This document shows, piece by piece, positions 18,030-58,628 of a DNA stretch of 64,000 nucleotides; the first letter of the stretch is position 1; each line of letters opens with the position of its first letter. Source of the stretch: Isoetes taiwanensis (taxonomy: Eukaryota; Streptophyta; Lycopodiopsida; Isoetales; Isoetaceae). The notes beneath the pieces are model-generated. The model did not search any database. It was not told the origin of the DNA and saw nothing but the letters and a program-made list of their open reading frames with translations. The DNA lies in the NCBI GenBank assembly GCA_021234155.1, contig JAJEKV010000203.1, positions 62,001-126,000 of the forward strand, given 5' to 3'. Both the position numbers and the translations under genes were made by a program.

Positions 18030-19705
18030 TATTATAAAGGGAAAAGGGAAACGGAAAAGGGAAGGAAAAGGAAAAACGATGAAAGGGAAAAGGGAAAAGG
18101 GAAAACGATGAAAGGGAAAAGGGAAAAGGAAAAAAAGAAAGGGAAAAAGGAAAAAAGAAAAGGGAAAAACGAAAAAAAGGAAAAGGGAAAAGGAAAAGGA
18201 AAAAAAAATGGGATGGGAAAAGGAAAAAGATGAAAGGGGAAAGGGAAAAGGGAAACGGAAGGGGGAAGGAAAAAGAAAAATGATGAAAGGGGAAAGGGAA
18301 AGGGAAAAGGGAAAAGGAAAAAGGGAAGGGAAAAGGAAAAATGAAAGGAAAAAGGAAAAGGAAAAGGGGAAAAGGGGAAGGGAAAGGAAAATGAAAAGGG
18401 AAAAAAAGGAAAAGGAAGAGGGAAGGGAAAAAGGAAAAACGATGAAAGGGAAAAAGGGAAAAAAAAGGAAGAGGGAAAAGGAAAACAATGAAAGGAAAAA
18501 GGGAAAAGGGAAAAGGAATAAAAGGAAAAAGGGGAAAAAGGAAAAGAAGGAGAAAAGGAAAAATGGAAAGATAAAAGAAAATAGAAAAAAATAGAATAAC
18601 GAGGGGAAGGGAACGGAAAAAAAAGAGGGGAGAAGGGTAAGAAAAAAGGTGAGAAAAGGGAAAAATGGAAGGAAAATAAGAAAAAGGTTGAAAAGTCTAT
18701 GGGAAAAAGAAAAAGGAAAAAAAGGAAAAGAGAGGGGAAAAAGGGAAAAAAGAGAACTTGGGAAAAGGAAATGAAAAAGAAAAAAAAGGAAAGGGGCGAA
18801 AAAAAAGGGAAAAAGAAAGGGTGAAGAAAGAAAAAAAAAAAAGCAAAAAAAAAAGCATCGAGAAAAAGGAAGAGGGAAAAATATGGAAAATGAGGAAAAA
18901 AGGTAAAAGAAAGTAGAATAGACAAAGGGTAGGGAGCAAGGAATAGGAAAAGAGGAAAAGAGGAAGGAGAAAAAAGGGGCCAACTTTAAAAAAGGGAAGA
19001 GGGAAAGGGTGAGGAAATAGAAAAAAGAAAGGGAAAAAGAGTATGGGAAAGGGAAAAGAAAAAAAAGAAACAAGAAAAGGAGAAAGTGGAAAGGGGAAAA
19101 AAGGGGAAGAGGATGGGGAAAGAAGGAAAAAGGGTACATAAAAAGGTTGAGAAAAGGGAATGGAAAGAGGCATATGAAAGCGAAGGAACAGGAAAGGGAA
19201 AATGTAAAGGAAGGGAAAGAGAAAGGAAAAGGGAAAAAGGGAACATCATAAAAAAAAAAGGGTGGGGGGAAGTGAAAAGGGAATGGAAAGTTGAAAGGAA
19301 AAAGGAAAAAAAGAAAAAAAGAGAAAGGAAAAGAGCAAAAGGAAATGAAAGGAGAGAGAAATGGGAAAAAAGATGGGGAAAAGGGCACGTGATCAAGAGG
19401 AAGAGGGTGGGGAAAGGAAGAAAAGGGCACATAAAAGGTAAGCAAAAAGAGAAAAAAAATGCATGAGAAATGGGAAAGAAAAAAGGAAAGGAAAAGGAAA
19501 AGGAAGAGGAAGGGGAAAGGAAAGGGAAAAGAGGTGGAAAAATGGGAAGAAGCGGGGAAAGATAAAAAGAAGAAAAGAGAGAAAAAAATTAAAAAGGGAA
19601 GGCAAGGGAGGGAGAAGGGGTTTAAAAAAAAAAAGGAGAATAAAAAAAAAGAAATTAAAGGTTCCTAATTTATGCCCATTAAAAGGCTTTAGGTACCATT
19701 ACTAG
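18030..19705 (+). mobile_element. 5'-truncated Helitron-like element with purine body
   Basis: Right after element A the sequence enters a purine tract (18037-19658). The tract is followed by 'ggttcctaatttatgccc', an eroded hairpin and CTAG at 19702-19705. The usual 5' block (cggacggtcgaggatttg) is absent, so the 5' end has been lost, perhaps when element A arrived. Confidence 0.65.
18037..19658 (+). repeat. Polypurine tract 1 (about 1.6 kb, purine on plus)
   Basis: The plus strand is almost entirely A and G. The 5' part is made of variants of 'gggaaaaggaaaa' punctuated by 'acgatgaaaggg'. The 3' part is less regular and holds landmarks found in sister tracts (for example 'gaatagacaaagggta' near 18917 and 'gggcacgtgatcaagagg' near 19384). 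Long open frames on both strands are artefacts of composition. Confidence 0.9.
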
Positions 19706-21763
19706 TCCTATATTATAATGTTGTGTAATGGACCGCACCCTAAATCGGACGGTCGAGGATTTGATTGACCAATGGTGGAGATGATGTGTGCGTGTCTTCA
19801 ACTAAAATTTCATCTTGACTATGGCTTCAATAAGGAAAGGGAAAAGGAAAAAGGAAAAAGGAAAAGGGAAAAGGGAAAAGGGGAAGGGGAAGGGGAAGGG
19901 GAAGGAAAAGGGAAGGAAAAGGAAAGGGAAAGGGGAAAGGGAAAAAGGGAAGGGAAGGAAAAGGAAAAAGCGATGAAAGGGAAAAAAAAAGGAAAAGGGA
20001 AGGGAAAAGGAAGGGAAAAGGAAAAAAGCGATGAAAGGGAAAAAGGAAAAACGATGAAAGGGAAAAGGAAAAAAGAAGAGGGGAAGGGAAAAGGAAAAAA
20101 AAAAAAAGGGAAAAAAGGGAAATGGAAAAGGGAAAGCGGAAAACGGAAAAGGGAAAGGGGAAAAGGAAAAGGGGGCGGGAAAAGGAAAAAAAACGATGAA
20201 AGGGAAAAGGGAAAAAGAAACGGAAAGGGGAAGGGAAAAGGAAAAAATGATGAAAGGGAAAAAGGAAAAAGGGAAAAGGGAAAAGGAAAAAGGGGGAAGG
20301 GGAAAAGGAAAAAAGATGAAAGGGAAAAAGAAAAACTTTGGGAAAAGGGAAAAGGGGAAAGGAAAAGGAAAACTATGATGAAAGGAAAAGGGAAAAGGAA
20401 GAGGGGAAGGGAAAAGGAAAAAGCGATGAAAGGGAAAAGGAAGAGGGGAAGGGAAAAGGAAAAAAGCATGAAAGGGAAAAGGGAAAAGGAAGAGGGAAGG
20501 GAAAAAGGAAAAACGATGAAAGGAAAAAAAAGGGAAAAAAGGAAAAAGGAAAAGGAATAAAAGGAAAAAAGATAAGAGGAAAAAGGAAGCAGAAGGAGAA
20601 AAAAGGAAAATGGAAAGATAAAAGAAAATAGAAAAAGGAATAGAATGACGAGGGGAAAGGGAAACTTGAAAAAAGCACCACATAGGGTAAGAAAAAGGTG
20701 AAAAGGAGAAAAAGGTAAGGGAAAATAAGAAAAGGTTGCAAAAGTCTATGGGAAAAAACAAAGTAAAAAGGAAAAGAGATAGGAAAAGGGAAAAAAGAGA
20801 ACTTGGGAAAAGGGAAATCTTTTTTTTGAAAAAAAGGAAAAGGGCGTGAAAAAAGGGGAAAAGAGAAGGTGAAGAAAAGAAAAAGGAAAGCAAAAAGAAA
20901 GCATCGAGAAAAAAAGGAAGAGGGAAAGGATGGAAAAATGAGGAAAAAGGTGGGGAAATTAGAATAGACAAAGGGTAGGGAGCAAGGAATAGGAAAAGAG
21001 GAAAGCGAAAAGGGCGCGAGAAAAAAGGGGAAGAGGGAAAGGGTGAGGAAATAGAAAAAAGAAAGGGAAAAGAGTATGGGAAGGGAAAAGAAAAAAAAAA
21101 CAAAAAAAGGAGAAAAGTGGAAAGGGGAAAAAAAGAAGAAGATGGGAAAAGAAGGAAAAAGGGTTACATAAAAAAAAGGGTGAAAAAGGGAATGGAAAGA
21201 GGCATATGAAAAGCGAAAGGGCAGAATGAAAAGGAAAATGTAAAGGAAAAGAGAAAAAAAGGGAAAAAGGGAACAAATCATTAAAAACAAAAGGGTGGGG
21301 AAAGTATGAAAAGGAATGGAAAGTTGAAAGGAAAAGGGGGTTCTAAAAAGGAGAAGGAAAAAAAGAGCATGAGGAAAAGAGGAGAGAGAAATGGGAAAAG
21401 AGATGGGGAAAAAGGGCACATGGGATCAAGAGGAAGAGGGTGGGGAAAGGAAAAAAGGGCACATGAAAAGGTAAGCAAAGAGAACGAAAAAATGCATGAG
21501 AAAAAAGAGAAAAGGAAAAGGAAAAGGAAGAGGAAGGGGAAAAGGAAAGGGAAAGAAAGTAGTGGAAAAATGGGAAGAGCAGGGAAAGATAAAAAAGGAA
21601 GGGAAAAAGCCGTGATAAGAAAAAGAAAAAAAAAAAAAGGAAGGGGAAAGGGAAGGCAAAGGGAGGAGAAACGGGTTAGAAAAAAAAAAGGGAGAATAAA
21701 AAAGAAAGAAACCACAAAGGTTCCTAATTTATAACCAGCAAAGAAGGTAAATACCATTACTAG
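19706..21763 (+). mobile_element. Helitron-like element F with purine body, complete, 2.06 kb
   Basis: It begins TCCTATATTATAATG directly after the CTAG of the previous element and ends CTAG at 21760-21763. The terminal hairpin is eroded (ataaccagcaaagaagg). The 5' block at about 19726-19832 (cggacggtcgaggatttg, then ttcatcttgactatggc) is shared with three other elements in the window. Between them lies a 1.9 kb purine tract. No gene. Confidence 0.75.
19831..21718 (+). repeat. Polypurine tract 2 (about 1.9 kb, purine on plus)
   Basis: Same two-part organisation as tract 1. The 5' part has many 'gatgaaagggaaaa' units; the 3' part repeats the landmarks in the same order. The rare pyrimidines sit mostly at landmarks, which suggests descent from one ancestral tract and not independent slippage. 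Confidence 0.9.
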
Positions 21764-23863
21764 TCCTATATTATAATGTTATGTAATGGACCACCCTAGA
21801 TCCGACGGTGAGAAAAGATTCATTTTTCAAGGGATTTGGAGATTCAACATAAAAAATCTGAGGGCCCCTATCGAAAGCGAGGCGTTTTAAAATACTAGTG
21901 ATGGCCGGGGGTTTCACTGGGGAACATCTTTGCCCTAAACCGGTTGATGTTGAAGGCATTGTTTGAAGAAAAATAAAATAAAAAATAACACTTGAGAAAA
22001 GCTTCGGTTCAAAATCACATCTCAATGCCACGGCTCAGCCATGCCAAGCCCGTTCGCATTACGTTTGTCATTTCTTAGGGTTTTTTAGCTTATTCTAAGG
22101 TACGCCATGCAGCTATGGCAAGCCCATTGCAAGACCGAGCAAGCAAAACATTATCAAGATTTTGAGTTCTAATAGGGGTTTACCTTGCTCACGAAGCTTA
22201 ACCTATTCTGATTTTGGTATTTCTTTTCACTCTCATTACTATGAAAGAAGGCGATTGATCCGGCACCTATTTTTATGGCATATCATCCTAAAAGTACATT
22301 CGAGGTTCTTCCCCAATCATATTTTTGGGTTATCCATTTTTTTGTTCAAAAATATGAAAGCTAAACACCATCATAGCTTTTACTGCTTCTCTGTTCATGC
22401 AAAGGCCTGTCGCTGGGGTATCCGTTCTCTAGACATCGTTTACCATCACAAGGTATTTAGAACCTTGCGATAATGCCTACAAAGGATTTGACATTTCAAG
22501 ATATCTGTTGAAAAGCAGTTGGATAGAGCATAGCATGGGCATTCAGGCTCAAACATTCTATTTTCATTCCTTGCAGGTTTCATGGAGCATCTTCGCGAGG
22601 TTTCAACTTTATGGGTTACAGGAGCAAAAATGCTTGGCGCCTGGGTTATCAAAATATAATCTTTCTTCTCAACAAATTCGAAAGTGGCGTATATAAATTT
22701 CTTTGCTATAGATATTTGAGCATGTAGGACTTTGCAAAGAATGGTGCTTCTTTGATTTCGATTTTTGACTATGTCAATTTAAGGTACGTTTGAGATGTTA
22801 GCTGCTTATTTTCTCATGCCCGGAAGGATGTTATAAATGCTTTTACCAGCTACGGCATGTTTCTGAAAGGTTCTCATCAACTATGCATATGTTTTAAATT
22901 GCTGTAGCGTATCCTCTTCTTGGTAGTTCATATGTTTGTTTTGCCATTTTTAATTAGCCGATCACATTATTCATATAATTTCACGAAGTGGCCATCTTGG
23001 TTGGGTAAAATGGATAGCATTTGGTCCAAAGGGATAGTGGCTTTGTATGGGTTCTTCAGTGGGCTGCATCAAAGGGAGCTATAACAATCCGGTGCGGAGT
23101 CCCTTTGTCCTACTTTGGCAGTTCTTCTCCTAACTATAGGACTTCTCTTTGCGGTACTTTGTTTTTCATCTAAGTGGGTCTAGACTCTTCTAATGTTGAT
23201 AAAACTGCAAACTAATTAGATTTAAGGAAAACCGGCTGAAAACATGTACGATAACTTTGTTATTAAAAATGTGGAGAGTTATGAATCACCACTCCACTTT
23301 CTAAAGGCTGCAACATTTTTCAAGCATAACCTCCAAGGACTTGAGCATCTAGACCATGGAGATATATCTCTTTTCTTTTGTCTTATTATTAAGCATATTT
23401 TTTGCAGGCTATCACAGGAGCTTCTTCAAGTTCTTGACTACATGCCTCTCACATGAACCTTTCTTTCTCAAGGTCCCAATGGATATTTTAAAGAGTGCCA
23501 CTTTAGTTCATCTCTGTTGTTACTAAATACTTCAGGGAACATTCTAATTATATTGTGATATGGTACTACATTTAAAAAACCATATCCAAGGTATATGAGG
23601 TTTTAATAATCTATCAGCTTATACAATCATTTTTGTGCATTCTACTGTTGGAGCCTTCACATGAAACTGAAGAGTATGTTGACTCGATGTGAAAGGGCTC
23701 TTGCAACATGTTAGATAACTGTTTTTGTCTGTTAAAAGTGCTGACTCAAAGTTGCTTTTGGGTTTTTCTTTGTCTTTCAATAGAATCAATCTTTTCATAA
23801 TCAATTGAGTAAAAACCTAGAGGAATTCCTCAACACACTCAACGAACTAGAAGGAAGATAGCC
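21764..23863 (+). mobile_element. Helitron-like element G, 5' end present, 3' end uncertain
   Basis: A 5' end (TCCTATATTATAATG, then taatggaccaccctaga) follows the CTAG of element F head to tail. The body is not purine-rich and has no gene I recognise. No family-type 3' hairpin is found before the next purine tract. A 12-bp perfect palindrome (gaggaattcctc, 23820-23831) followed by CTAG at 23847-23850 could be an alternative 3' end. Confidence 0.4.
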
Positions 23864-23890
23864 AAGATTTAAGATATAACCTTAAATCTT
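23864..23890. repeat. Perfect inverted repeat at the junction into purine tract 3
   Basis: aagatttaag / cttaaatctt, 10-bp arms around a 7-nt loop, exactly at the border between element G sequence and the polypyrimidine (plus strand) tract. Confidence 0.85.
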
Positions 23891-25493
23891 CCCTCTTCCT
23901 TTCCCCACCCTCTTCCTCTTGATCATGTGCCCTTTTCCCCATCTCTTTTCCCATTTCTCTCTCCTCTTTTCCTCATGCTCTTTTTGCTTTCCCTTCTCCT
24001 TTTTCCGCTTCCCTTTTCCTTTCAACTTTCCATTCCCTTTTCATACTTTCCCCACCCTTTTGCTTTAAGGATTTGATGTTCCCTTTTTTCCCTTTCCTTT
24101 CTCTTTTCCCTTCCTTTACATTTTCCCTTTCCCCAATTCCTTCGCTTTTCATATGCCTCTTTCCATTCCCTTTTCTCAACCTTTTTATGTACCCTTTTCC
24201 TTCTTTCCCCATCTTCTTCCCCTTTTTTCCCCTTTCCACTTTCTCCTTTCTTGTTTCTTTTCTTTTCCCTTTCCCATACTCTTTTCCCTTTCTTTTTTCT
24301 ATTTCCTCACCCTTTTCCCTCTTCCCTTTTTCTCGTGCCCTTTTAAGCCTTCCTCTTTTCCTATTCCTTGCTCCCTACCCTTTGTCTATTCTAATTTCCC
24401 CCCCACCTTTTTCCTCATTTTTCCATCCTTTTCCCTCTTCCTTTTCTCGATGCTCTTTTTGCTTTCCTTTTTCTCTTTCTTCACCTTCTCTTTTCCCCTT
24501 TTTCCGCCCTTTCCTTTTTCTCTTTTCTGGTTCCTTTTCCCAAGTTCTCTTTTTCCCTTTTCCTATCTCTTTTCCTTTTTACTTTTCTTTTTCCCATAGA
24601 CTTTGCATGCAACCTTTTCTTATTTTCCCTTACCTTTTTCTCCTTTTCTCACCTTTACTTCTTACCCTTCTCGCGGTGCTCTTTTTCCGTTCCCTTTCCC
24701 CCTCGTCTATTCTATTCCTTTTTCTATTTTCTTTTATCTTTCCATTTTCCTTTTCTCCTTCTCTTTCCTTTTTCCTCTTATCTTTCCTTTATTCCTTTTC
24801 CTTTTTCCTTTTTCCCTTTTCCCTTTTCCCTTTCATCGTTTTTTCCTTTTCCCTTCCCCTCTTCCTTTTCCTTTTCCCTTTCATCGTTTTTCTTTTCCCT
24901 TCCCTCTTCCTTTTTCCTTTTCATCGTTTTTCCTTTTCCTTCCCCTCTTCCTTTTCCCTTTTCCCTTTCATCGTTTTTCCTTTTCTTTTCCCCTTTCCCT
25001 TTTTTTTTTCCTTTTTCCTTTTCATCTTTTTTCCTTTTCCTTTTCCCTTTTCCCTTTCCCTTTTTCCTTTTCCTTTCATCATTTTCTTTTCCCTCCCTTT
25101 TCCGTTTCCCCTTTTCCTTTTTTCCCTTTCATCGTTTTTTTCTTTTCCCCGGTCCCCTTTTCCTTTTCCCCTTTTCCTTTTCCGTTTTCCGTTTTCCCTT
25201 TTCCATTTTCCCTTTTCCCTTTCATCTTTTTTTCCTTTTCCTTCCCTCTTCCTTTTCCCCCTTTCCCCTTTCATCGTTTTCCTTTTTTTTTCTTTCATCG
25301 TTTTCCTTTTTTTTTCCCCTTTCCTTTTCCCTTTTTTCCCTTTCATCCTTTTTCCTTTTCCCTTTTCCCCCTTCCCCTTCCCCTTTTCCTTTTCCTTTTT
25401 CCTTTTCCTTTTTTCCTTTTCCTTCCCTTCCCTTCCCCTTTTCCCTTTTCCCTTTTCCCTTTTCCTTTTCCTTTTTCCTTTTCCCTTTCATAT
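23885..25493 (-). repeat. Polypurine tract 3 (about 1.6 kb, purine on minus)
   Basis: The plus strand is C and T only over long runs (ttttcccttttcc type) with 'tttcatcgttttt' units toward the right. The landmark complement 'accctttgtctattc' lies near 24380. Confidence 0.9.
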
Positions 25494-25619
25494 TGAAGCC
25501 ATAGTCAAGATGAAATTTTAGTTGAAGACATGCACACATCATCTCCACCATTGGTCAATCAAATCCTCGACCGTCCGGATTTAGGGTCGCGGTCCATTAC
25601 CTAACATTATAATATAAGA
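23885..25619 (-). mobile_element. 3'-truncated Helitron-like element with purine body
   Basis: The right end carries the complement of TCTTATATTATAATG (ending at 25619) and the shared 5' block (25497-25600). The 3' terminus on the left is missing: compared with the sister copy at 25623, the last 300 bp or so are absent. Confidence 0.65.
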
Positions 25620-25622
25620 TAA

Positions 25623-27669
25623 CTAGTAATGGTACCCGACCTTCTTTGGTATAAATTAAAGAACCTTTAATTTCTTTCTTTTTTATTCTCCCTTTTTTTT
25701 TTTTTTTAACCCGTTCTCCCTCCCTTTGCCTTCCCTTTCCCTTCCCTTTTTTTTTCTTTCTCTTTTTTTATCAGCTTTTTCCTTCCTTTTTATCTTTCCT
25801 GCTCTTCCCATTTTCCACTACTCTCTTTTCCCTTTCCTTTTCCCCTTCCTCTTCCTTTTCCTTTTCCTTTTCTCTTTCCCGTTTCTCATGCATTTTTTTT
25901 TTCTTCTTTTTGCTTACCTTTTCATGTGCCCCTTTTCTTCCTTTCCCCACACTCTTCCTCTTGATCATGTGCCCTTTTCCCATCTCTTTTCCCAATTTCT
26001 CTCTCCTCTTTTCCTCATGCTCTTTTTTGCTTTCCCTTCTCCTTTTTTCAAGCTTCCCTTTTCCTTTCAACTTTCCATTCCCACTTTTCATACTTTCCCC
26101 ACCCTTTTGCTTCGATGTTCCCTTTCCTTTCTCTTTCCCCTTCCTTTTACATTTTCCCTTTCCCGTTCCTTTAAGCTTTTCATATGCCTCTTTCCATTCC
26201 CTTTTCTCAACCTTTTTTTATGTACCCTTTTTTCCTTCTTTCCCCATCTTCTTCCCCTTTTTTCCCCTTTCCACTTTCTCCTTTCTTGTTTCTTTTTTCT
26301 TTTCCCCTTTCCCATACTCTTTTCCCTTTCTTTTTCTATTTCCTCACCCTTTCCCTCTTCCCTTTTTTTCTGCCCTTTTAAGACCTTCCTCTTTTCCTAT
26401 TCCTTATCCCTACCCTTTGTCTATTCTAATTTCCCCCCCCCTTTTTCTCATTTTTTTCCTTCCTTTCCTCTTCCTTTTTCTCGATGCTCTTTTTTGCTTT
26501 CCTTTTTCTCTTTCTTCACCTTCTCTTTTCCCCTTTTTCACGCCCTTTCCTTTTTCTCTTTTTCTCGTTCCCTTTTCCCAAGTTCTCTTTTTCCCTTTTC
26601 CCTATCTCTTTTTCCTTTTTTTACTTTTCTTTTCCCATAGACTTTGCAACCTTTTCTTATTTTCCCTTACCTTTTTCTCCTTTTCTCACCTTTACTTCTT
26701 ACCCTTCTCCTTACACGCTCTTTTTCCGTTCCCTTTTCCCCTCGTCTATTCTATTCCTTTTTCTATTTTCTTTTTATCTTTCCATTTTCCTTTTCTCCTT
26801 CTCTTTCCTTTTCCTCTTATCTTTCCTTTATTCCTTTTCCTTTTTCCTTTTTTCCTTTTCCCTTTTTTCTTTCATCGTTTTCCTTTTCCTTCCCTCTTCC
26901 TTTTCCCTTTTCCCTTTCATCGTTTTCCTTTTCCCTTCCCTCTTCCTTTTCCCTTTCATCGTTTTCCTTTTCCCTTCCCTCTTCCTTTTCCTTTTCCCTT
27001 TCATCGTTTTTTCCTTTTCCTTTTCCTTTTCCCTTTTCCCTTTTCCCTTTTCCCTTTTTCCCTTTCATCGTTTTTCCTTTTCCTTCCCCTTTTTCCTTTT
27101 CCTTTTCCCTTTTCCCTTTTCCCTTTTCCTTTTCCCCATTCATCATTTTCCTTTTCCTTCCCCTTTTCCGTTTCCCTTTTCCTTTTCCCTTTCATCGTTT
27201 TTCCTTTTCCCGTCCCCTTTTCCTTTTCCCTTTTCCCTTTTCCGTTTTCCGTTTTCCCTTTTCCATTTTTCCTTTTCCCTTTCATCTTTTTTCCTTTTCC
27301 CTTCCCCTATTCCTTTTCCTTTTCCCTTTCATCGTTTTTCCTTTTCCCTTTCATCGTTTTTCCTTTTCCTTCCCTTTTTCGTTTCCCTTTTTCCCTTTTC
27401 CCTTTCATCTTTTTCCTTTTCCCTTCCCCTTCCCCTTCCCCTTTTCCCTTTTCCCTTTTCCTTTTCCTTTTTCCTTTTCCCTTCCCCTTCCCCTTTTCCC
27501 TTTTCCCTTTTCCCTTTTCCTTTTCCTTTTTCCTTTTCCCTTTCATATTGAAGCCATAGTCAAGATGAAATTTTAGTTGAAGACACGCACACATCATCTC
27601 CACCATTGGTCAATCAAATCCTCGACCGTCCGATTTAGGGTGCGGTCCATTACACAACATTATCTTATA
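25623..27669 (-). mobile_element. Helitron-like element with purine body, about 2.05 kb
   Basis: The left edge is CTAG (25623-25626) next to 'taatggtacc' and an eroded hairpin. The right edge is the shared 5' block (27546-27650) followed by 'attatcttatattata', which differs from the usual 5' end in order. No gene. Confidence 0.7.
25660..27543 (-). repeat. Polypurine tract 4 (about 1.9 kb, purine on minus)
   Basis: Plus strand is polypyrimidine. The same landmarks as in tracts 1-3 and 6 appear in the same order on the minus strand, including 'gatcatgtgccc' near 25962 and 'accctttgtctattc' near 26412. Confidence 0.9.
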
Positions 27670-27686
27670 TTATAACTAGTAATGGT

Positions 27687-27703
27687 GCCCAGCGTTGCTG
27701 GGC
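27687..27703 (-). other. Helitron-like 3' terminal hairpin, 3
   Basis: gcccagc gtt gctgggc, 7 nt from CTAG. Confidence 0.9.
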
Positions 27704-27754
27704 ATAAGTTGAGAGCCTGTAAATGCTTTGGGATGCAGTGAGAAAAGCCCTATC

Positions 27755-29375
27755 CCTTTCCCTTTCCTTTTTGCTCTATCCCGCATTTCATTTTTTCTTA
27801 TTTTCTCTACTTTTTTTTTCTTTTCCTTTTTTTTTTCTCGTCTTTCTCACATGTTTTCTTGATTTCCCATCCCTTTCCTTCCCCCTTCCCTGTTCCCGAT
27901 AACCTTTTTCCCTTCCCTTTTGCTCCTTTCTCTACCTTTTCCCTCTTCCCCTTTCTCTTTTTTTATGCCTTCTCTTTTCCCCACCCTTTTCCATGTCTTC
28001 CCTTTTTCTCAACCTTTTACTCTTTCGCCCTTTTCCATGCCTATTTTCCATTCTCTTTTCCTCCTTTTCCCACTCTTTTCCTCCTTTTTTTGTGTGCCCT
28101 TTTCCCTTCCATTTTTCTTTTTCTCCCTCTCGTTTTCCATGCCCTTTTTACCTTCCCTTTTTCCATCTCCTCACCCTTTCCCTCTTTCCCTTTTCCATGT
28201 TCCCTTTTTTCTTTTCCCTTTTCCATTTTCCTCTTTTCCTTTTCCTTTTTAAATACTCTCTCTTTCCCCCCTTTTCCATTCTTTTTCTTTTCTATTTCCC
28301 TTTTCCCATGCCCTTTTTCCCACCCCTTTTTTCTTCTTTCTATTTTTCCGTGCTTCCTTTTCCTCCTTTTCCCACCCTTTCCCTCTTCCCGTGCAATCCC
28401 TTCTTTCCACCCTTCCTTTTTTTCTTTTCTTTTTCCTTTTTAACCTCATGTCCTTTTCCCCTTTCCTCCCCTCCATCACTCCCCTGCTTCCCTTTCCCTT
28501 TTTTCCCGTTTCCTTTTCTTGATGGATTTTTTTCTTTCCGTTTTCCTCCTTTGCCGATCCTTTTCCTGTGCACTTTTTCCCTTCCTTTCCTTTTCCTTTT
28601 CCCTTTTTCCATGCCTTTTGCACATTTGTTTTATTCTCTTATTTCCTATACCCCATTTTCCTCTTTTCCCCACCCTTTCTCTCTTGCCCCTTTTCTTTTC
28701 CCTTTTTTCTTTTTTCCCTTTCTTCACCATTTTTCTCTTCCCTTTTCTCTCATGCCCTTCCCCCTTCCATTTTCTCGTTTCCCTCTTTCTTTTTCCTTGT
28801 GACCTTTACCTAGGTTCCCTTTCCCCCTTTTCCCTTTCCTTTTTCTTTCTTCTCACTTTCCTTTTTTCTATACCCATTTTCTTTTCCCCTCTCCCCATCC
28901 TTTTCTTGTTCCCCCTTGTCCCTTCCCTTTTCCTCATTTTTCCAACCTTTCACTCTTCCTCTTTTCTTGATGCATTTTTTCCCTTCCCTTTCCCTTTTCC
29001 TATGCCATTTGTCCCTTCTTTTTTCCACTTTCCTCAACGCTTCTCTTTTTCCCCCTTTTCCCATTCTCCTCCCCTTTTCCATGCTTTTTTTCTCCTTCAT
29101 TTTCTCCTTTTTTCAACCTTTTCCTCTTTCCTTTTTTTTTCATGCCCTTTCCATTTACCTTTTCCACTTTATCTCTTCCTCCTTCCCTCGTGCCCTTTTC
29201 CTAGGTTCCCTTTCCCTTTTTCGTTTTCCATGCCTTTTTCTCTTCTCTTATCCCCACCCTTTTCCCTTTTCCTTTTGCCCTTTTCCCTTTTCCCCATGCC
29301 TTTTTGCCCTTCACATTCTCTCTTTCCATTTCCCTTTTCCTTTTCCCCCTTTTCATTTACCTTTTCCCCTTAAGA
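27755..29375 (-). repeat. Polypurine tract 5 (about 1.6 kb, purine on minus)
   Basis: The plus strand is polypyrimidine with recurring 'ccatgcccttttcc' phrases every 60-120 bp. The 'catcgttttt' units and landmarks of the other tracts are absent, so it is similar in composition but not in sequence. Confidence 0.88.
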
Positions 29376-29517
29376 GATCGAAGCATGACCAATCACAGTG
29401 TTGATAAGTCGTGCAATAAATCTAGGCCTTCGGATGCATCCAGATGATCTCGGCCATTCAAATTAGGGCTCGATGCACTACTTACGGTATAACATTATAA
29501 TATAAGATAGTTAAGGT

Positions 29518-29534: not shown

Positions 29535-29607
29535 ACAGTTTAAAAACCTGTAAATCATAATCCAGCAATGAGAAACCTACATCCATTGTACAATCTTTGT
29601 CATTCAT

Positions 29608-39371: not shown

Positions 39372-42371
39372 TTAATCTATGACAGCCTTTGTCTCCAAAC
39401 ATAACTCGTTGAGTGTTCTAAAAAGATGAAGTTATCCCTGTAGGGACATGTAACTATAACCTGCTGTAAGAGTATGCAAATCAAGTCCAATCATTTGTTT
39501 GCGACCTGCATAATTCATGTAGCTCCTGTTGGTTTATTTTATTCAATTTCCATGCAAAGATACCTTTGCACTAATTCTTAGACATATTCACAGGAAGTTC
39601 TAAGCATTTTACAAATTTACCCAAAGCCTGCCATATAATTGTAATTTGGTAACTGTAAATGTTGGAAACTTGTTGGCCATATAATAATTATTTGTGGGAT
39701 ATCCCAACTTCTTTTTTGAGCTATTTCAACGGCCATTTTTTGCCTAGCTTAATTAATTATCTGTTTGCATATTTTTTTTATAGCCGATGGGCCCTTTGAG
39801 CTTTGTTTATTGGGTTTATCAACATTTAAAAATGTTGTATAGTTCTTTGAAATGACTATTGTATATGCAAAGATGATTTTTTGAAACAACTATTGTATAT
39901 TTTATATATGCAATAATTACATTTGACATTGTCTTTGCACAATATTCCATGTCATGCTAGCTTTGTTACATGAACTTAGAGTCTTTCTTATAGATCAGCA
40001 TACTCCATAAGAGGATTATTTGAAAAAATATAAATTACACTTCTGGCACAGGGCAATGCTGATATATGCTTACAGGTTCTTAGAAAGACCTACTAATCTG
40101 CTTATGGATCTAGACAAATATAGCGCATCTTTATACATGATACAACAAATTGACACTGCAAGGCACATTTGGGTTAATGTAAATCTTTGTATTATGTTTC
40201 TTTATACATGCGCTGTCACATTGGGCAATCCATTGCAGAATTTGACATGTACCAGGGACATCTAAACATTTGTGTCATGTTGCTATTGTAGAGGGTAAAT
40301 ATTTGTAAGTGTGGCCGAAACTCCTTATCCGATGAAGCTAAATATGTTAAAATGCTGACAAAGCCTGATGTGCTTTAATGTTAGAAAATGAACATTTAGT
40401 CTACAGACCATCTCAAACTTTGCATGCTATCTTACCTGTTTGAATATCACCGAAATTGCATCCCTCATATGATTCTTGACATGGACGAAATGGTCTTTTG
40501 CAGGTAGCACACATGTAGTCAAATAGGATTTTATTCTTGCACACCTTGGGTCTCCTGACTACCATGCAAGAAATAAGACTATGCTGCTCCCAACTATTCT
40601 AACAGTCAAAAAACATTTCAATCCCTATCAAATCCAAAGCAAATAAACATATCCTTTGTTGAAAACAACAGATTCTTTGTTGAATTACAATAAACATTTT
40701 CAGATATATCTCTGGAGGATGCTGGAGACATAACCTCATATCTTTAGCTTGATGTGATGGTATTCATCACAAAACATATCTGCTGCCATGCACATTCTGA
40801 TGGAAGGCTGAACATATGGCCAGTTTGAAGACTCCTGCAGAAATTCACAATCATATACCAGCAAATTCAATCAAAATAGCAACCAATGCAAATGTTCCTA
40901 ACCAAGCTTTGTCCCACCAAGCTTAAACAATTTGGAATAGAGAATTGACGAAATGGCAAATCCCTTTTGTGCATTTGTACATGGCCGTTGGACACAGTTC
41001 GACCCTAAAAGCGAAAGACAAAATCTTTATATTCTGCTTTAGACAGAATGAAAACACCTAATGATCTGCAACTAACTCTGCCATGTCCTATTTCAACCAG
41101 ACCAATTCTAAGGGCAATATCTAACTATAAGCTGACGTAGATAGAGACCCAGCTCTAAAAGCACACGTTCGTGAAGTGGATCCCTATATTATAAGCTAGC
41201 TAAGATCAAAACAACTACAGTTTAAAGCACAATTCATAGTAAAAATAATTACATGTAGCAATTACCTGCCATTAACGTAGAAATCCTCTGAAGAACTCAA
41301 CTCCGACAAAGCTATGAACTGGCATTTTTAACCATCCTTGGGCAAAGGCTTTGAATCTGGGTAGATCATAGCAAGAGGCAAATCATGTGAAATATTGCTG
41401 GAATGAATCAGACAACACAAAATCAAAAAAAAGTTCTGCTTCCGATCTGCAGACATCCAAAGAGTATGCTTCTGCTTTTGCTCCACGACATCAAGGGAAT
41501 AAAAAAAGAATTATTTTGCCACATCATAGACGTTGATACAGTAAGTGGCATACCAAAAACTAAAGAAGGTCGATCCATTGAGTGTTTTTGGACGTGGCTT
41601 CCTGGCCTTCAGGTACAGCCTTGGAAGTGCTCTTAATACGATAACCAGGGTATGTTAATATAACCAGGGTACGATAACCAGGGTATTATTGCTCGAATCA
41701 TTGCAACAAGGGTATGTTAATATTGTAAGCCCCCTCTCACGCATATGATAACAGAGGTTTCCAGATGCGTGGGTTTGCCCCGGTGATCCGTGAGATGATG
41801 CTCCAAATAAGAGATAATGCGAATACGTGAGTTCTATACAAATTTCTTCCTTTCGGCTCCCTAAAATACAGGGATCAAGTGCCATAGCCTCTGCCGTCTC
41901 CATAGCCCCTTAGGAAAGCAAATCGGCAAGAGACTGGCCTCTGGAGCAACCGATAGGGCAAAAAAAAAATGGCAAAATCCACTTACCTTGAAGGCGGAAT
42001 TCTGCTGCCGCATATCAGAAGCCACGATACCAACCATCTGAGTTCGGTTCTGGGATATGATGGCCAAGCTGTGAGGGTGAGGCATGGACTGGGAATGTAT
42101 TCAAACTCGGCACATCTCTTTGCCGCCAAGACTACTTTCTGCACCAAAGGGAGCATCAAAGGAAGTCTAGCAGCATCAAAACCTCAAACGTCCACTGAAG
42201 GTGCATGCCGGACTTCCTGTGCACTGCCGCCCTCGCTAACCCTAGCAAAAAAAAACCATATTATTTTAAAGAATCTTACGTGGCATCATCTCTTCCATTG
42301 ATTTCATCAAATCTGGGCCGCCCAAATTAGGGCTGGGTCCAACACTTACACAATAACATTATAATATAAGA
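39372..42371. other. 5' part of the outer Helitron-like element, no gene seen
   Basis: About 3 kb of AT-rich sequence without a convincing coding block. Short open frames (for example 40020-40265 plus and 41969-42301 plus) have no recognisable motif. The last 100 bases carry the family 5' block in reverse (gggctgggtccaacactt). Confidence 0.45.
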
Positions 42372-45379: not shown

Positions 45380-45453
45380 GGCCTATTAGCTCAGTTGGTT
45401 AGAGCGTCGTGCTAATAACGCGAAGGTCGCAGGTTCGACACCTGCATAGGCCA
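45380..45453 (+). tRNA. tRNA-Ile(AAU), plus array, consensus
   Basis: All 74 nt match the consensus of the minus array, with AAU in loop CTAATAA. A TATA-like box (gtataaaac) and CAA precede it and TTTT follows 5 nt downstream. Confidence 0.95.
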
Positions 45454-45853
45454 TTGGATTTTGGCGAGTAAGCCCATTGGAATTCTTTGTTGCAAGCTTT
45501 GTTCTTTTTAAGAGTTAGGAACTTGGCAATCGCTTCGTCAATAAAATAGGTATGGTTTCACAAAAAAAAAGATTCATTGTGTTAGATAAGGATTTGTGGT
45601 TTCAATATTAATCTTATCTGAAGTTTTTCTTCAACATCTTAGTTGTTTGGATCTACGAGGCCACTTTAGTCTTTTAAAAACTAGTGGTAATCTAGACTTT
45701 CACATACTCACTGGCTTTGCAACTCGTAGTAATGCATTTCATGTTGTCAGCATCATTGTTTCGTGTTCTTCGCGAGATGTCAAAAAAAGTAACAAAACTG
45801 CATGCCGTATAAAATACTTGGAGAGGTTAGAAAAATGCAGCTTTCAATCTTCA

Positions 45854-45932
45854 GGCCTATTAGCTCAGTTGGTTAGAGCGCGTGGTATGGTTAATAACGC
45901 GAAGGTCGCAGGTTCGACACCTGCATAGGCCA
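45854..45932 (+). pseudogene. tRNA-Ile pseudogene with expanded anticodon arm
   Basis: Everything matches the consensus except the anticodon arm, which reads gcgcgtggtatggttaataa, breaking the stem. Confidence 0.7.
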
Positions 45933-46332
45933 TTGGATTTTGGCGAGTAAGCCCATTGGAATTCTTTGTTGCAAGCTTTGTTCTTTTTTAAGAGTTAGGA
46001 ACTTGGCAATCGCTTCGTCAATAAAATAGGTATGGTTTCACAAAAAAAAGATTCATTGTGTTAGATAAGGATTTGTGGTTTCAATATTAATCTTATCTGA
46101 AGTTTTTCTTCAACATCTTAGTTGTTTGGATCTACGAGGCCACTTTAGTTTTTTAAAAACTAGTGGTAATCTAGACTTTCACACACTCACTGGCTTTGCA
46201 ACTCGTAGTAATGCATTTCATGTTGTCAGCATCATTGTTTCGTGTTCTTCGCGAGATGTCAAAAAAAGTAACAAAACTGCATGCCGTATAAAACACTTGG
46301 AGAGGTTAGAAAAATGCAGCTTCCAATCTTCA

Positions 46333-46406
46333 GGCCTATTAGCTCAGTTGGTTAGAGCGTCGTGCTAATAACGCGAAGGTCGCAGGTTCGACACCTGCAT
46401 AGGCCA
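46333..46406 (+). tRNA. tRNA-Ile(AAU), plus array, consensus
   Basis: Identical to the 74-nt consensus; the spacer on both sides is also intact. Confidence 0.95.
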
Positions 46407-46804
46407 TTGGATTTTGGCGAGTAAGCCCATTGGAATTCTTTGTTGCAAGCTTTGTTCTTTTTAAGAGTAGGAACTTGGCAATCGCTTCGCCAATAAAATA
46501 GGTATGGTTTCACAAAAAAAAAGATTCATTGTGTTAGATAAGGATTTGTGGTTTCAATATTAATCTTATCTGAAGTTTTTCTTCAACATCTTAGTTGTTT
46601 GGATCTACGAGGCCAGTTTAGGTTTTTAAAAACTAGTGGTAATCTAGACTTTCACACACTCACTTGCTTTGCAACTCGTAGTAATGCATTTCATGTTGTC
46701 GCAAAGATCATTGTTTCGTTCTTCGCGAGATGTCAAAAAAGTAACAAAACCGCATGCCGATAAAACACTTGGAGAGGTTAGAAAATGCAGCTTTTCAATC
46801 TTCG

Positions 46805-46875
46805 TGCCTATTAGCTCAGTTGGTTAGAGCGTCGTGCAATAACGCTAAGGTCGCAGTTCGACACCGCATAGGCCA
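46805..46875 (+). pseudogene. tRNA-Ile pseudogene (71 nt)
   Basis: The first base changes G to T, bases are missing from the anticodon loop (gtgcaataacg), and there are two T-arm deletions. Confidence 0.75.
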
Positions 46876-48117
46876 TTGATTTTGGCGAGTAAGCCCATTG
46901 GAATTCTTTGTTGCAAGCTTTGTTCTTTTTAAGAGTTAGGAACTTGGCAATCGCTTCAATCAATAAAATAGGTATGGTTTCACAAAAAAAAGATTCATTG
47001 TGTTAGATAAGGATTTGTGGTTTCAATATTAATCTTATCTCAAGTTTTTCTTCAACATCTTAGTTGTTTGGATCTACGAGGCCACTTTTTAGTTTTTTAA
47101 AACTAGTGGTAATCTAGACTTTCACACACTCACTTGGCTTTGCAACCTCGTAGTAATGCATTTCATGTTGTCGATCATTGTTTCGTGTTCTTCGCGAGAT
47201 GTCAAAAAAAGTAAAAAAACCGCATGTCGTGAAAAACACTTGGAGAGGTTAGAAAATGCAGCTTCCAATCTTCGTGCCTATTAGCTCGCTTGGTTGGTAT
47301 AAAACACTTGGAGAGGTTAGAAAATGTTTCACTTCCAATCTTCAGGCCTATTAGCCTATTAGTTGCAAGCTTTTTTTTTTAAGAGTTAGGAACTTGGCAA
47401 TTTGTTCTTTTAAGAGTTAGAACTTGGCAATCGCTAAAAAATAGGTATGGTTTCACAAAAAAAAAGATTCATTGGTTAGATAAGGATTTGTGGTTTCAAT
47501 ATTAATCTTATCCAAGTTTTTCTTCAACATCTTAGTTGTTTGGATCTACGAGGCCACTTTAGTTTTTAAAAACTAGTGGTAATCTAGACTTTCACACACT
47601 CACCGGCTTTGCAAACTCGGTAATGCATTTCATGTTGTCGATCATTGTTTCATAGGCCATTGTCAAAAAAAAGTTTTGGATAAAACACTTGAGAGGTTAG
47701 AAAAAGCCCATTGGAATTTTTAGTTGCAAGCTTTGTTCTTTTAAGAGTTAGGAACATTGGAATTCGTTCTTTTTAAGAGTTAGGAACTTGGCAATCGCTT
47801 CAATAAAAAATAGGTATGGTTTCACAAAAAAGATTCATTGTGTTAGATAAGGATTTGTGGTTTCAATATTAATCTTATCTCAAGTTTTTCTTCAACATCT
47901 TAGTTGTTTGGATCTACGAGGCCACTTTTAGTCTTTTAAAACTAGTGGTAATCTAGACTTTCACATACTCACTGGCTTTGCAACTCGTAGTAATGCATTT
48001 CATGTTGTCAGCATCATTGTTTCGTGTTCTTCGCGAGATGTCAAAAAAAAAAGTAACAAAACCGCATGCCGTGATAAAACACTTGGAGAGGTTAGAAAAT
48101 GCAGCTTCCAATCTTCG

Positions 48118-48193
48118 TGCCTATTAGCTCAGCTTGGTTAGAGCGTCGTGGCTAATAACGCTAAGGTCGCAGGTTCGACACCTGCATAGGCCA
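48118..48193 (+). pseudogene. tRNA-Ile copy with two 1-nt insertions
   Basis: Insertions lie in the D loop (agcttggtt) and next to the anticodon loop (gtggctaataacg); the T arm and B box are intact. Confidence 0.6.
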
Positions 48194-48612
48194 TTGTATT
48201 TTGGCGAGTAAGCCCATTGGAATTCTTTTGTTGCAAGCTTTGTTCTTTTTAAGAGTTAGGAACTTGGCAATCGCTTCGTCAATAAAATAGGTATGGTTTC
48301 ACAAAAAAAAAAAAATTCATTGTGTTAGATAAGGATTTGTGGTTTCAATATTAATCTTATCTGAAGTTTTTCTTCAACATCTTAGTTGTTTGGATCTACG
48401 AGGCCACTTTAGTCTTTTAAAAACTAGTGGTAATCTAGACTTTCACACACTCACTTGCTTTGCAACTCGTAGTAATGCATTTCATGTTGTCAGCATCATT
48501 GTTTCGTGTTCTTCGCGAGATGTCAAAAAAAATAGTAACAAAAAAAAAGATTGCATGCCGTGATAAAAACACTTGGAGAGGTTAGAAAAATGCAGCTTTC
48601 AAATAATCTTCG

Positions 48613-48688
48613 TGCCTATTAGCTCAGCTTGGTTAGAGCGTCGTGGTTAATAACGCGAAGGTCGCAGGTTCGACACCTGCATAGGCCA
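48613..48688 (+). pseudogene. tRNA-Ile copy with two 1-nt insertions
   Basis: D-loop insertion as in the preceding copy, and gtggttaataacg in the anticodon arm; the T arm is intact. Confidence 0.6.
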
Positions 48689-49093
48689 TTGGATTTTGGC
48701 GAGTAAGCCCATTGGAATTCTTTGTTGCAAGCTTTGATCTTTTTAAGAGTTAGGAACTTGGCAATCGCTTCGTCAATAAAATAGGTATGGTTTCACAAAA
48801 AAAAAAAATTTATTGTGTTAGATAAGGATTTGTGGTTTCAATATTAATCTTATCTGAATTTTTTCTTCAACATCTTAGTTGTTTGGATCTACGAGGCCAC
48901 TTTTTAGTTTTTAAAACTAGTGGTAATCTAGACTTTCACATACTCACTGGCTTTGCAACTCGTAGTAATGCATTTCATGTTGTCGCCATCATTGTTTCGT
49001 GTTCTTCGCGAGATGTCAAAAAAAAACGTAACAAAACCGCATGCCGTATAAAAACACTTGGAGAGGTTAGAAAAATGCAGCTTTCAATCTTCG

Positions 49094-49168
49094 TGCCTAT
49101 TAGCTCAGCGCTTGGTTAGAGCGTCGTACAATAACGCTAAGGTCGCAGTTTCGACACCGCATAGGCCA
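49094..49168 (+). pseudogene. tRNA-Ile pseudogene
   Basis: An extra 'cg' in the D loop, a disrupted anticodon loop (cgtacaataacg) and a B box changed to agtttcgacacc. Confidence 0.75.
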
Positions 49169-49574
49169 TTGGATTTTGGCGCGAGTAAGCCCATTGGAAT
49201 TTTTTTGTTGCAAGCTTTGTTCTTTTTAAGAGTTAGGAACTTGGCAATCGCTTCATCAATAAAATAGGTATGGTTTCACAAAAAAAAGATTCATTGTGTT
49301 AGATAAGGATTTGTGGTTTCAATATTAATCTTATCTGAAGTTTTTCTTCAACATCTTAGTTGTTTGGATCTACGAGGCCAGTTTAGGTTTTTAAAAACTA
49401 GTGGTAATCTAGACTTTCACACACTCACTTGCTTTGCAACTCGTAGTAATGCATTTCATGTTGTCAGCATCATTGTTTCGTGTTCTTCGCGAGATGTCAA
49501 AAAAAAAAAAAAAAAACCGCATGCCGTGATAAAACACTTGGAGAGGTTAGAAAAATGCAGCTTTTCAATCTTCG

Positions 49575-49648
49575 TGCCCTATTAGCTCAGCTTGGTTAGA
49601 GCGCCGTGCTATAACGCTAAGGTCGCAGTTTCGACACCGCATAGGCCA
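49575..49648 (+). pseudogene. tRNA-Ile pseudogene
   Basis: The anticodon loop lost one A (gtgctataacg), the acceptor has an extra C, and the B box is altered. Confidence 0.75.
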
Positions 49649-50048
49649 TTGGATTTTGGCGAGTAAGCCCATTGGAATTCTTTGTTGCAAGCTTTGATCT
49701 TTTTAAGAGTTAGGAACTTGGCAATCGCTTCGTCAATAAAATAGGTATGGTTTCACAAAAAAAAAGATTCATTGTGTTAGATAAGGATTTGTGGTTTCAA
49801 TATTAATCTTATCTGAAGTTTTTCTTCAACATCTTAGTTGTTTGGATCTACGAGGCCACTTTAGTTTTTTAAATACTAGTGGTAATCTAGACTTTCACAT
49901 ACTCACTTGCTTTGCAACTCGTAGTAATGCATTTCATGTTGTCAGCATCATTGTTTCGTGTTCTTCGCGAGATTTCAAAAAAAGTAACAAAACTGCATGC
50001 CGTATAAAACACTTGGAGAGGTTAGAAAAATGCAGCTTCCAATCTTCA

Positions 50049-50122
50049 GGCCTATTAGCTCAGTTGGTTAGAGCGTCGTGCTAATAACGCGAAGGTCGCA
50101 GGTTCGACACCTGCATAGGCCA
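50049..50122 (+). tRNA. tRNA-Ile(AAU), plus array, consensus
   Basis: Identical to the 74-nt consensus. A small spacer duplication (taggaacttggcaatcgct) follows at about 50187-50225. Confidence 0.95.
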
Positions 50123-50545
50123 TTGGATTTTGGCGAGTAAGCCCATTGGAATTCTTTGTTGCAAGCTTTGTTCTTTTTTAAGCGTTAGGAACTTGGCAAT
50201 CGCTTAGGAACTTGGCAATCGCTTCGTCAATAAAATAGGTATGGTTTCACAAAAAAAAGATTTATTGTGTTAGATAAGGATTTGTGGTTTCAATATTAAT
50301 CTTATCTGAAGTTTTTCTTCAACATCTTAGTTGTTTGGATCTACGAGGCCACTTTTAGTTTTTAAAACTACTAGTGGTAATCTAGACTTTCACACACTCA
50401 CTTGGCTTTGCAACTCGTAGTAATGCATTTCATGTTGTCGCATCATTGTTTCGTGTTCTTCGCGAGATGTCAAAAAGTAACAAAACCGCATGCCGTGATA
50501 AAAAACACTTGGAGAGGTTAGAAAAATGCAGCTTCCAATCTTCAG

Positions 50546-50620
50546 TGCCTATTAGCTCAGCTTGGTTAGAGCGTCCGTGCTAATAACGCTTAAGGTCGCA
50601 GTTCGACACCGCATAGGCCA
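50546..50620 (+). pseudogene. tRNA-Ile pseudogene, last in the array
   Basis: Insertions in the D loop and anticodon stem (gtccgtgctaataacgctt) and a T-arm deletion. Confidence 0.7.
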
Positions 50621-56977: not shown

Positions 56978-57110
56978 TCTTATATTATAAAAATATAGCG
57001 TGTGTCTTCAATGGAGCCCTAAATCGGACGGTCGAGGATTTGATTGACCAATGGTGGAGATGATGTGTGCGTGTCTTCAACTAAAATTTCATCTTGACTA
57101 TGGCTTCAAT

Positions 57111-58628
57111 ATGAAAGGGAAAAGGAAAAAGGAAAAAGGAAAAGGAAAAGGAAAAGGGAAAAGGAAAAGGAAAAGGAAAAACGATGAAAGGGAAAAGGGA
57201 AAAGGGAAAAGGAAAAGGGGAAGGGAAAAGGAAAAATGATGAAAGGAAAAAAGAAAAAGGGCAAAGGAAAAGGGGAAGGGAAAAGGAAAAATGATGAAAG
57301 GGAAAAGGGAAAAGGAAAAGGAAAAGGGGAAGGGAAAAGGAAAAATGATGAAAGGGAAAAAGGGAAAAGGAAAAGGGGAAGGGGAAGGGAAAAGGAAAAA
57401 CGATGAAAGGGAAAAGGGAAAAGGAAAAGGGAAGGGAAAAGGAAAAAAAGATGAAAGGGAAAAGGGAAAAGGGAAAAGGGAAAAGGGAAAAGGGAAGAGG
57501 GAAAAGGAAAAACGATGAAAGGGAAAAGGGAAAAGGGAAAATGAATAAAAGAAAGGTAAGAGGAAAAAAGAAAGAGAAGGAGAAAAGGAAGAAGGAAAGT
57601 AAGGGTGAGAAAAGTAGAAAAAGGTAAGGGAAAATAAGAAAAGGTTGCAAAGTCCATGGGAAAAAGAAAAGTAAAAAGGAAAAGAGAGGGGGAAAAGGGC
57701 AAAAGAGAACTTGGGAAAAGGGAACGAGAAAAGGAGAAAAAAAGAAAGGGCAAAAAAAAGGAAAGAGAGAAAGGGTGAAGAAAGAGAAAAACGGAAGCAA
57801 AAAGAGCATCGAGAAAAAGGAAGAGGGAAAGGATGGAAAAAGGAGGAAAAGGGTGGGGGGAAAGTAGAATAGACAAAGGGTAGGGAGCAAGCAATAGGAA
57901 AAGAGAAAAAGAGGAAGGAGAAAAGAGCACGAGAAAAAAGGGAAGAGGAAAAGGGTGAATAAATAGAAAAAAGAAAGGGAAAAAGAGTATGGGAAAGGGA
58001 AAAGAAAAAAGAAACAAGAAAGGAGAAAGTGGAAAGGGGAAAAGGGGGAAGAGGATAGGGAAAGAAGGAAAAAGGGTACATAAAAAAGGTTGAGAAAAGG
58101 GAATGGAAAGAGGCATATGAAAAGGGAAAGGGAACGGGAAAGGGAAAATGTAAAGGAAGGGGAAAGAGAAAGGAAAGGGAAAAAGGGAACAGCGCAAAGC
58201 AAAAAGGTGGGGAAATTATGAAAAGGGAATGGAAAGTTGAAAGGAAAAGGGAAGCGGAAAAAGGAGAAGGGAAAGCAGAAAGAGCATGAGGAAAAGGGGA
58301 GAGAGAAATGGGAAAAGAGATGGGGAAAAGGGCACGTGATCAAGAGGAAGAGGGTGGGGAAAGGAAGAAAAGGGCACATGAAAAGGTAAGCAAAAGAGAA
58401 CGAAAAAAATGCATGAGAAACGAGAAAGAGAAAAGGAAAAGGAAAAAGCAGGGAAAAAGAGTAGTGGAAAAATGGAAAGAGCGGGGAAAAATAAAAAGGA
58501 AGGGAAAAAGCTGATAAGAAAAAGAGAAAGAAAAAAATGGCAAGGGGAAAGGGAAGGCAAAGGGAGGGAGAAGGGGGTTAGAAAAAAAAAGAAGAAGGAG
58601 AATAAAAAAAGAAAGAAATTAAAGGTTC
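57111..58628 (+). repeat. Polypurine tract 6 (about 1.5 kb, purine on plus)
   Basis: The 5' half has regular 'gatgaaagggaaaa' units about 60 bp apart. The 3' half holds the family landmarks (gaatagacaaagggta near 57867, gggcacgtgatcaagagg near 58330, atgcatgagaaa near 58410). Confidence 0.9.

Follow-up and report, generated by a model that had tools for sequence, protein, structure and literature searches.

The window, that is, the whole 64-kb stretch of Isoetes taiwanensis DNA analysed here, contains six purine-rich tracts. Composition scans in 200-bp bins gave them a summed length of about 10.1 kb, in agreement with the 10 kb or so estimated by the first-pass annotation, and a purine fraction of about 0.84–0.96 for the bins inside them. 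With edges read from the sequence, three tracts are purine-rich on the forward strand (18036–19660, 19833–21715 and 57111–58628) and three on the reverse strand, being pyrimidine-rich on the forward one (23889–25489, 25670–27544 and 27740–29371). Five of them form family A: best alignments of the tract 57111–58628 with the other four showed 81–84% identity, and two window tracts of this family share only 79% with each other. The sixth tract (27740–29371) aligns with the 57111 tract at about 66%, which is the level of offset self-alignments, and belongs to a second family, B, with further copies. The first-pass annotation had described five similar tracts inside elements with common 5′ and 3′ ends and a sixth tract of other sequence and the same composition, and both descriptions hold. 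The features of the region are as follows:

14582–18029, forward strand: ordinary Helitron (R = 0.48) of the same terminal type, with both ends, A before and T after; its CTAG adjoins E1
18030–19705, forward strand: family A element E1, 5′ end mostly deleted; tract 18036–19660; degraded 3′ end ACCATTACTAG
19706–21763, forward strand: family A element E2, head-to-tail with E1 (CTAG|TC at 19705/19706); tract 19833–21715; degraded 3′ hairpin
21764–21820, forward strand: 5′ stub of a third tandem copy, recognised by a 5′ end match, extent by eye
23889–25619, reverse strand: family A element E3, without 3′ end; 5′ end at 25619
25623–27675, reverse strand: family A element E4, with a rearranged 5′ terminus whose terminal 13 bp are inverted; degraded 3′ end with CTAG at 25623, by eye
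27676–29507, reverse strand: family B element (sixth tract), complete with both ends; tract 27740–29371
56978–58665, forward strand: family A element E6, both ends, 5′ variant TCTTATATTATAAAAATATAGCG; tract 57111–58628
13693–42371, reverse strand: 28.7-kb segment between a Helitron 5′ end at 42371 and a 3′ end at 13693, enclosing five of the six purine tracts

The 5′ ends lie at 19706, 21764 (the stub) and 56978 on the forward strand and at 29507 and 25619 on the reverse strand, and the 3′ ends at 58665 (forward) and 27676 (reverse). The 3′ ends that precede 19706 and 21764 are too degraded for the 3′ pattern search, yet they read ACCATTACTAG. Both ends are present in three purine elements of the window, namely 19706–21763, where the 3′ hairpin is degraded, 27676–29507 and 56978–58665. 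Not all six window elements are intact, some being truncated or rearranged. The tract of E6 contains a tandem repeat of about 55 bp between 57113 and 57598 (period 55, 84% matches), and most of the purine sequence of this A body is not in clear tandem.

Termini, insertion sites and Helitron identity

The 5′ end of the elements reads TC(T/C)TATATTATAATGTT. The 3′ end consists of a 7-bp hairpin, GCCCAGC-AAC-GCTGGGC, followed by ACCATTACTAG, which ends in CTAG; the hairpin is degraded in several copies. It lies about 11 nt before the 3′ end, the distance required of a Helitron, and its pattern has nine matches in the window with up to three mismatches, compared with none in 100 dinucleotide shuffles. 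All 22 paired elements start with TC and end with CTAG, letters that were part of the search patterns, in which substitutions were tolerated. No terminal inverted repeats were seen when the 5′ and 3′ termini were compared by eye.

Empty sites could be identified for two elements. For one purine element (L029), the joined 200-bp flanks have matches at no fewer than 40 other places, over 198–200 bp and at 95–99% identity (40 of 636 candidates were scored, giving 41 rows, one of which is a partial second match). The joined flanks of an A-type element (L118) align across the junction with six places, at 81–83% over at least 165 bp, besides weaker ones. In both cases the insertion occurred at A|T and nothing was duplicated or lost. 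A further case comes from the 28.7-kb segment, whose outer flanks rejoin a tRNA-array unit with 93.8% identity over 418 bp. Where the pattern left the flank free, the base before the 5′ end is A in 11 of 13 cases, the exceptions being L009, which is in tandem, and L117, which has a T; the base after the 3′ end is T in 11 of 13, with L009 and L123 (A) as exceptions. Copies are also arranged head to tail with a CTAG|TC junction, and a 3′ end lies no more than about 10 bp upstream of three of 20 family A 5′ sites (L003, L005 and L009). Together, the termini, the 3′ hairpin, the precise A|T empty sites and the CTAG|TC tandem junction identify the purine-bodied elements, with hardly any room for doubt, as non-autonomous Helitrons, which bears out the Helitron-like character proposed by the first-pass annotation.

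Two other classes were considered and rejected. Microsatellite or satellite DNA does not fit, given that clear tandem structure is confined to part of the A bodies and that every one of the 30 examined loci carries at least one Helitron end. Helentron/DINE-1 elements insert at T|T, and their autonomous partners encode an endonuclease; insertion here is at A|T, and the single candidate partner frame contains no endonuclease family in Pfam. The purine elements resemble Helentron/DINE-1 elements with satellite arrays of Crassostrea gigas and Drosophila in being mobile rolling-circle elements with repetitive internal DNA. They differ in that the bodies of the latter, in the excerpted accounts available, are satellite-like tandem arrays, whereas the repeat of about 55 bp makes up part of the one A body measured.

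As far as the excerpts of the Helraiser and Helibat reports go (PMC4778049, PMC5876387), these elements share the 5′-TC, the CTAG-3′, the hairpin 11 nt from the 3′ end and the insertion between A and T without duplication; unlike them, the elements described here have a body that is about 88–95% purine, mostly 1.2–1.9 kb long, on the 5′-TC…CTAG-3′ strand. As for coding capacity, no RepHel was found in the purine elements, and putative RepHel genes lie elsewhere in the genome. A Drosophila Helitron is reportedly tied to GA-rich dosage-compensation motifs, a link that recalls the present case, except that there it concerns a short binding motif and here the entire body. Similarly, plant centromeres are said to contain tandem head-to-tail arrays of Helitrons, and the copies observed here are also head to tail, although in short runs. 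No description of a Helitron family with a purine body was found in the titles and abstract openings searched, a literature that leaves most subscription journals outside, and the word Helitron is absent from the main text of the I. taiwanensis genome paper (PMC8566536).

Genome-wide distribution and candidate autonomous partner

The genome searched comprises 1,658,258,908 bases in 1,110 contigs, and the best match of an rbcL copy in it is to a Rubisco large subunit in PDB entry 9chz. It holds 2,836 exact matches to the 5′ end together with its preceding A, 4,382 matches to the 3′ end and 361 matches to the family A 5′ subterminal sequence, the last two with up to three mismatches, and each of the three reversed-pattern controls gave zero matches. 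A search with the A body, in which 40 of 4,144 candidates were scored, gave at least 83 matching pieces, so that its copy numbers are lower bounds. All 20 sampled family A 5′ sites (every fifth of 100 listed) open a purine tract, which is short in L011 and L015; a 3′ end was found downstream with up to seven errors at 13 of these sites and at none of the other seven.

Sampling from the ends showed two kinds of body. Upstream of 20 sampled 3′ ends (every fifth of 100 listed), nine bodies were purine, two of them truncated (L024 and L040), 11 ordinary and none pyrimidine. Behind 61 of 100 listed 5′ ends, a non-random set drawn mostly from the start of the contig order and from those that have a listed 3′ end as partner, 21 bodies were purine (R 0.82–0.96), 40 ordinary (0.45–0.55) and none pyrimidine, and no body had an intermediate purine content. 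Most of the sampled Helitrons with this 5′ end (40/61) have, accordingly, ordinary bodies. One element (L036) belongs to both samples, and L050 of the 5′ sample is identical with L035 of the 3′ sample; among those counted as ordinary, at least two (L065 and L091) are doubtful as 5′ ends. If the fraction of one third holds for the 2,836 exact matches, extrapolation would give about 1,000 purine elements with an exact 5′ end genome-wide.

The first-pass annotation had also considered that the tracts might be common without the ends, their association then being due to chance, and this was not borne out at the core-word loci examined. A 16-letter word from the purine core, including neither end, occurs 3,978 times in the genome, and the same word read backwards 4,693 times, which is to be expected of purine repeats. 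We grouped the first 100 places of the word into 39 loci. At 20 of these, a same-strand Helitron end was already among the listed 5′, 3′ or A-type end matches, and the 10 that were read of the remaining 19 all contained at least one such end, in one case (L119) a weak 3′ end only. In total, one or both Helitron ends accompany the purine tract, on its own strand, at 30 of 30 examined loci. One further core-word locus, seen incidentally, has a 5′ end, and another outside the 30 (C66:44231) has no 5′ end in the portion seen. The purine strand is the 5′-TC…CTAG-3′ strand in every purine element examined.

A possible RepHel partner of the purine elements is found at another locus (L114), where a candidate frame of 994 aa contains a partial Helitron_like_N domain and a PIF1 domain, the N-terminal part being incomplete. 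The frame stops some 170 bp short of a 3′ end of the matching type, which is directly followed by a new 5′ end; no 5′ end of its own was found. Scoring of 150 out of 1,813 candidates also gave Helitron_like_N matches at other places in the genome, and four other such loci had neither element end within about 1.5 kb. The 28.7-kb segment of the window contains no frame of RepHel size. It may be a read-through composite, because the subfamily that its 5′ end resembles is not the one that its 3′ end resembles.

Descent of the purine bodies and persistence of their composition

On the basis of the sequence that follows the 5′ terminus, the purine elements fall into nine types, which we call A, A′, B, C, D, E, F, G and H, with F and G seen in one copy each. 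Some A bodies bear an A′-like 5′ end. The purine fraction of the measured cores is 0.88–0.915 in all types. Links tie the bodies in the set A, A′, D (two copies), E, F and H to one another, with all 21 pairs scoring above the maximum of 30 block shuffles and above the reversed control (the weakest pair, D1–H1, has a z of 2.6), and the bodies of B and C match each other above block-shuffled and reversed controls. Between these two groups, seven of 21 pairs pass the controls, weakly (best z 4.5). The body of G is short, and E–G is its sole passing pair. Direct comparison of A and B bodies gave a local alignment at the level of noise, with no excess over block-shuffled controls, and no excess over a Markov control of shared words containing at least two pyrimidines. 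Given two groups of bodies with weak links between them, the probable course is diversification from one or two ancestral purine bodies, with about 90% purine and the orientation retained; a single origin of all bodies is not established, because no collinear homology was detected between A and B bodies.

That same lack of homology is what several independent captures of purine-rich host DNA would predict. Captures, however, would not readily account for the links in all 21 tested pairs of the A, A′, D, E, F and H group, nor for the seven of 21 pairs that pass, if weakly, between this group and B/C, nor for a 5′ region of about 130 nt that is common to B, C, D, E and G at 75–86% identity. Moreover, captures should have occurred in both orientations, yet pyrimidine bodies are absent from either end sample. 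Independent capture is thus unlikely, and the purine body is a property of related subfamilies, not of chance insertions.

Inheritance does not by itself tell why the composition persists. The physical character of the bodies may offer one answer. In 11 purine bodies, the predicted DNA folding energy per 200 nt averages −0.7 for the purine strand and −0.4 for its complement, compared with −17.5 and −16.7 for the two strands of eight ordinary Helitrons; that the bodies have next to no structure follows directly from their composition. CTAG occurs 0.40 times per kb in purine bodies and 2.35 times in ordinary Helitrons, and CTRR on the moving strand 1.43 and 10.09 times per kb, respectively. In the model established for Helraiser, one strand is cut, peeled off and circled, with the 3′ hairpin as terminator (PMC4778049, PMC5876387, as excerpted). 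By analogy, the RepHel of an autonomous partner, with its Rep nuclease and Pif1-type helicase, would cut and peel off the purine strand, peeling would stop at the 3′ hairpin, and the ends would be joined to a circle that is inserted at AT. The ancestor may have gained its body from the expansion of short A/G repeats, and this body would then have been inherited, rearranged and diversified, its orientation being kept by descent. In the reading we prefer, a homopurine strand nearly free of hairpins and with few CTAG would leave the true 3′ end as the sole strong stop for the helicase, which would make full-length copying reliable. That purine composition is favoured for being structure-free and terminator-poor is put forward tentatively, and still more cautiously that composition itself is the selected trait, the moving strand being kept free of hairpins and false 3′ terminators. 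Several observations run against this mechanism: a pyrimidine-rich moving strand would fit the argument equally well (−0.4), so that it does not explain the orientation alone; G-quadruplex-type motifs, which would hinder smooth passage, are commoner on the purine strand (2.2 compared with 0 per kb); and some 3′ hairpins are degraded.

The strongest competitor is that the body is a neutral passenger: an ancestral Helitron gained a purine repeat tract, and the present 90% or so reflects slow drift from near 100%, with no function. This has a serious chance of being right, if short of an even one. The rates of change point this way, purine–pyrimidine differences per site in bodies and ends being alike (0.0215 and 0.0237 in B, 0.0391 and 0.0347 in A, 0.0148 and 0.0095 in E). 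Rates that are similar in A and B and higher in the body in E speak against strong purifying selection on composition, and no clear deficit of purine-to-pyrimidine change was found within families in bodies compared with ends. Ordinary families proved to lack common bodies and were unusable as controls for these rates. The partly tandem structure of A bodies is also what slippage would give. On the other hand, the cores have kept to the same narrow range of purine fraction in all types even though many pairs are near the noise floor of alignment. Pyrimidines are retained at 0.45–0.91 in bodies and 0.83–1.00 in ends (11 pairs), a difference due in part to alignment error. Pyrimidine-to-purine singletons were counted in 20 of 136 columns in B and 24 of 134 in A, that is, 4.1 and 4.7 times the reverse rate, and simulations of alignment error, with rates set by hand and not fitted, gave a ratio of 1.4–2.9. 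The resulting excess in A and B, roughly twofold, goes against a neutral passenger and is a sign of maintenance that we grade as suggestive only, because nanopore error could yield the same bias.

Fewer targets for silencing could also favour such a body, since with few symmetric CG and CHG sites maintenance methylation might not hold on it. Purine bodies contain 10.3 CHG cytosines and 10.7 CG per kb, compared with 43.4 and 21.5 in ordinary ones (11 and eight bodies, respectively). CG is nevertheless present and, relative to expectation, commoner in purine bodies (observed/expected 0.81 compared with 0.59), and CHH methylation would still be possible, which makes this escape a distinctly poor candidate. 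Purine RNA paired with pyrimidine DNA is stable, and an R-loop in which purine-rich RNA, made by transcription along the element, stays on the pyrimidine strand could free the moving strand for the nuclease; it would explain the single orientation of every purine element examined, but descent alone accounts for that, and we regard the R-loop as improbable. A coding role is unlikely from the frames alone: the longest purine-strand open frame is below the shuffle mean in four of 11 bodies (D1, D2, E1 and F1) and above it in seven, with three or fewer of 100 shuffles reaching that of A2, B1 and C1, and the pyrimidine-strand frames (336–527 aa) are attained in length by at least 14 of 100 shuffles in every body.

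Finally, the assembly was built from nanopore R9.4.1 reads with short-read polishing (PMC8566536, in the portion available), and odd interruptions (CTT, T-runs) occur in single copies, but an artefact of miscalled or collapsed simple repeats is scarcely credible when copies on many contigs share landmarks (about 83–92% identity) and ends and sit at precise empty sites, miscalls corrupting single bases and being unable to create such families. Overall, the best explanation, and a fairly likely one, is that of non-autonomous Helitrons with an inherited purine body, for whose persistence a structure-poor moving strand is the more tentative reason.

Significance for Helitron biology

Helitron cargo is usually regarded as incidental DNA acquired by capture. 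Among the elements sampled in this genome, one terminal system carries two cleanly separate kinds of body, of about 50% or about 90% purine and never of about 10%. This contrast is a natural experiment on whether rolling-circle transposition and the recognition of the 3′ end depend on the structure of the moving strand. Why composition and strand persist is a testable question. If the sampled fraction holds, the genome would offer about 1,000 scattered purine tracts of kilobase size in which triplexes, R-loops and replication stalling could be studied in a plant, and such tracts may be passed over as simple repeats. Should selection on composition prove true, the sequence of these elements would turn over freely while composition and strand stay fixed, and they would represent a transposon body selected for its base composition and not for its sequence.

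Irregularities at the ends and within the bodies of purine elements

The purine elements are non-autonomous Helitrons, and at one of them (family A; 25623-27675, minus strand) the 5′ terminal 13 bp, at 27663-27675 of the window, read as their own reverse complement. At L123, a locus elsewhere in the genome, the 3′ hairpin sequence is doubled (positions ~3160-3185) and adjoins the start of a purine tract for which no 5′ end was visible. Inside the window elements, the purine runs at 18700-21400 and 24000-26500 are broken by lone CTT, TTAA and T-run interruptions, each found in single copies, which by eye look like nanopore consensus errors. At a further locus (L115; C1027:17472300-17480500 of assembly G000), a purine element lies ~1.5 kb from a frame of 976 aa carrying Helitron_like_N, a domain of the Helitron transposase RepHel, and the two have opposite orientations.

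Repeat arrays of the window

ARAGORN returned 20 matches in the window, mostly tRNA-Ile(AAT)-like, in arrays with a period of ~430-490 bp:

6304-13468, minus strand: array of tRNA-like genes, mostly tRNA-Ile(AAT)-like
42529, minus strand: tRNA-like gene(s) of the second array
45380-50620, plus strand: tRNA-like genes of the second array

The second array switches orientation between 42.6 and 45.4 kb. A reverse-transcriptase-like remnant (RVT_1 match, 10748-11986, minus strand), whose score is slightly below the curated cut-off, lies within the tRNA-array region. At 955-1532, a CACCA-type repeat array is closely followed by a GTGGT-type array, and the pair resembles an inverted repeat, large and imperfect, made of simple sequence.

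A 28.7-kb segment between Helitron ends

Helitron ends resembling two different subfamilies bound 28.7 kb of the window (13693-42371). The target of this segment is A|T within a unit of the tRNA array, and the outer flanks rejoin. The segment is possibly a giant read-through Helitron with smaller Helitrons inside it.
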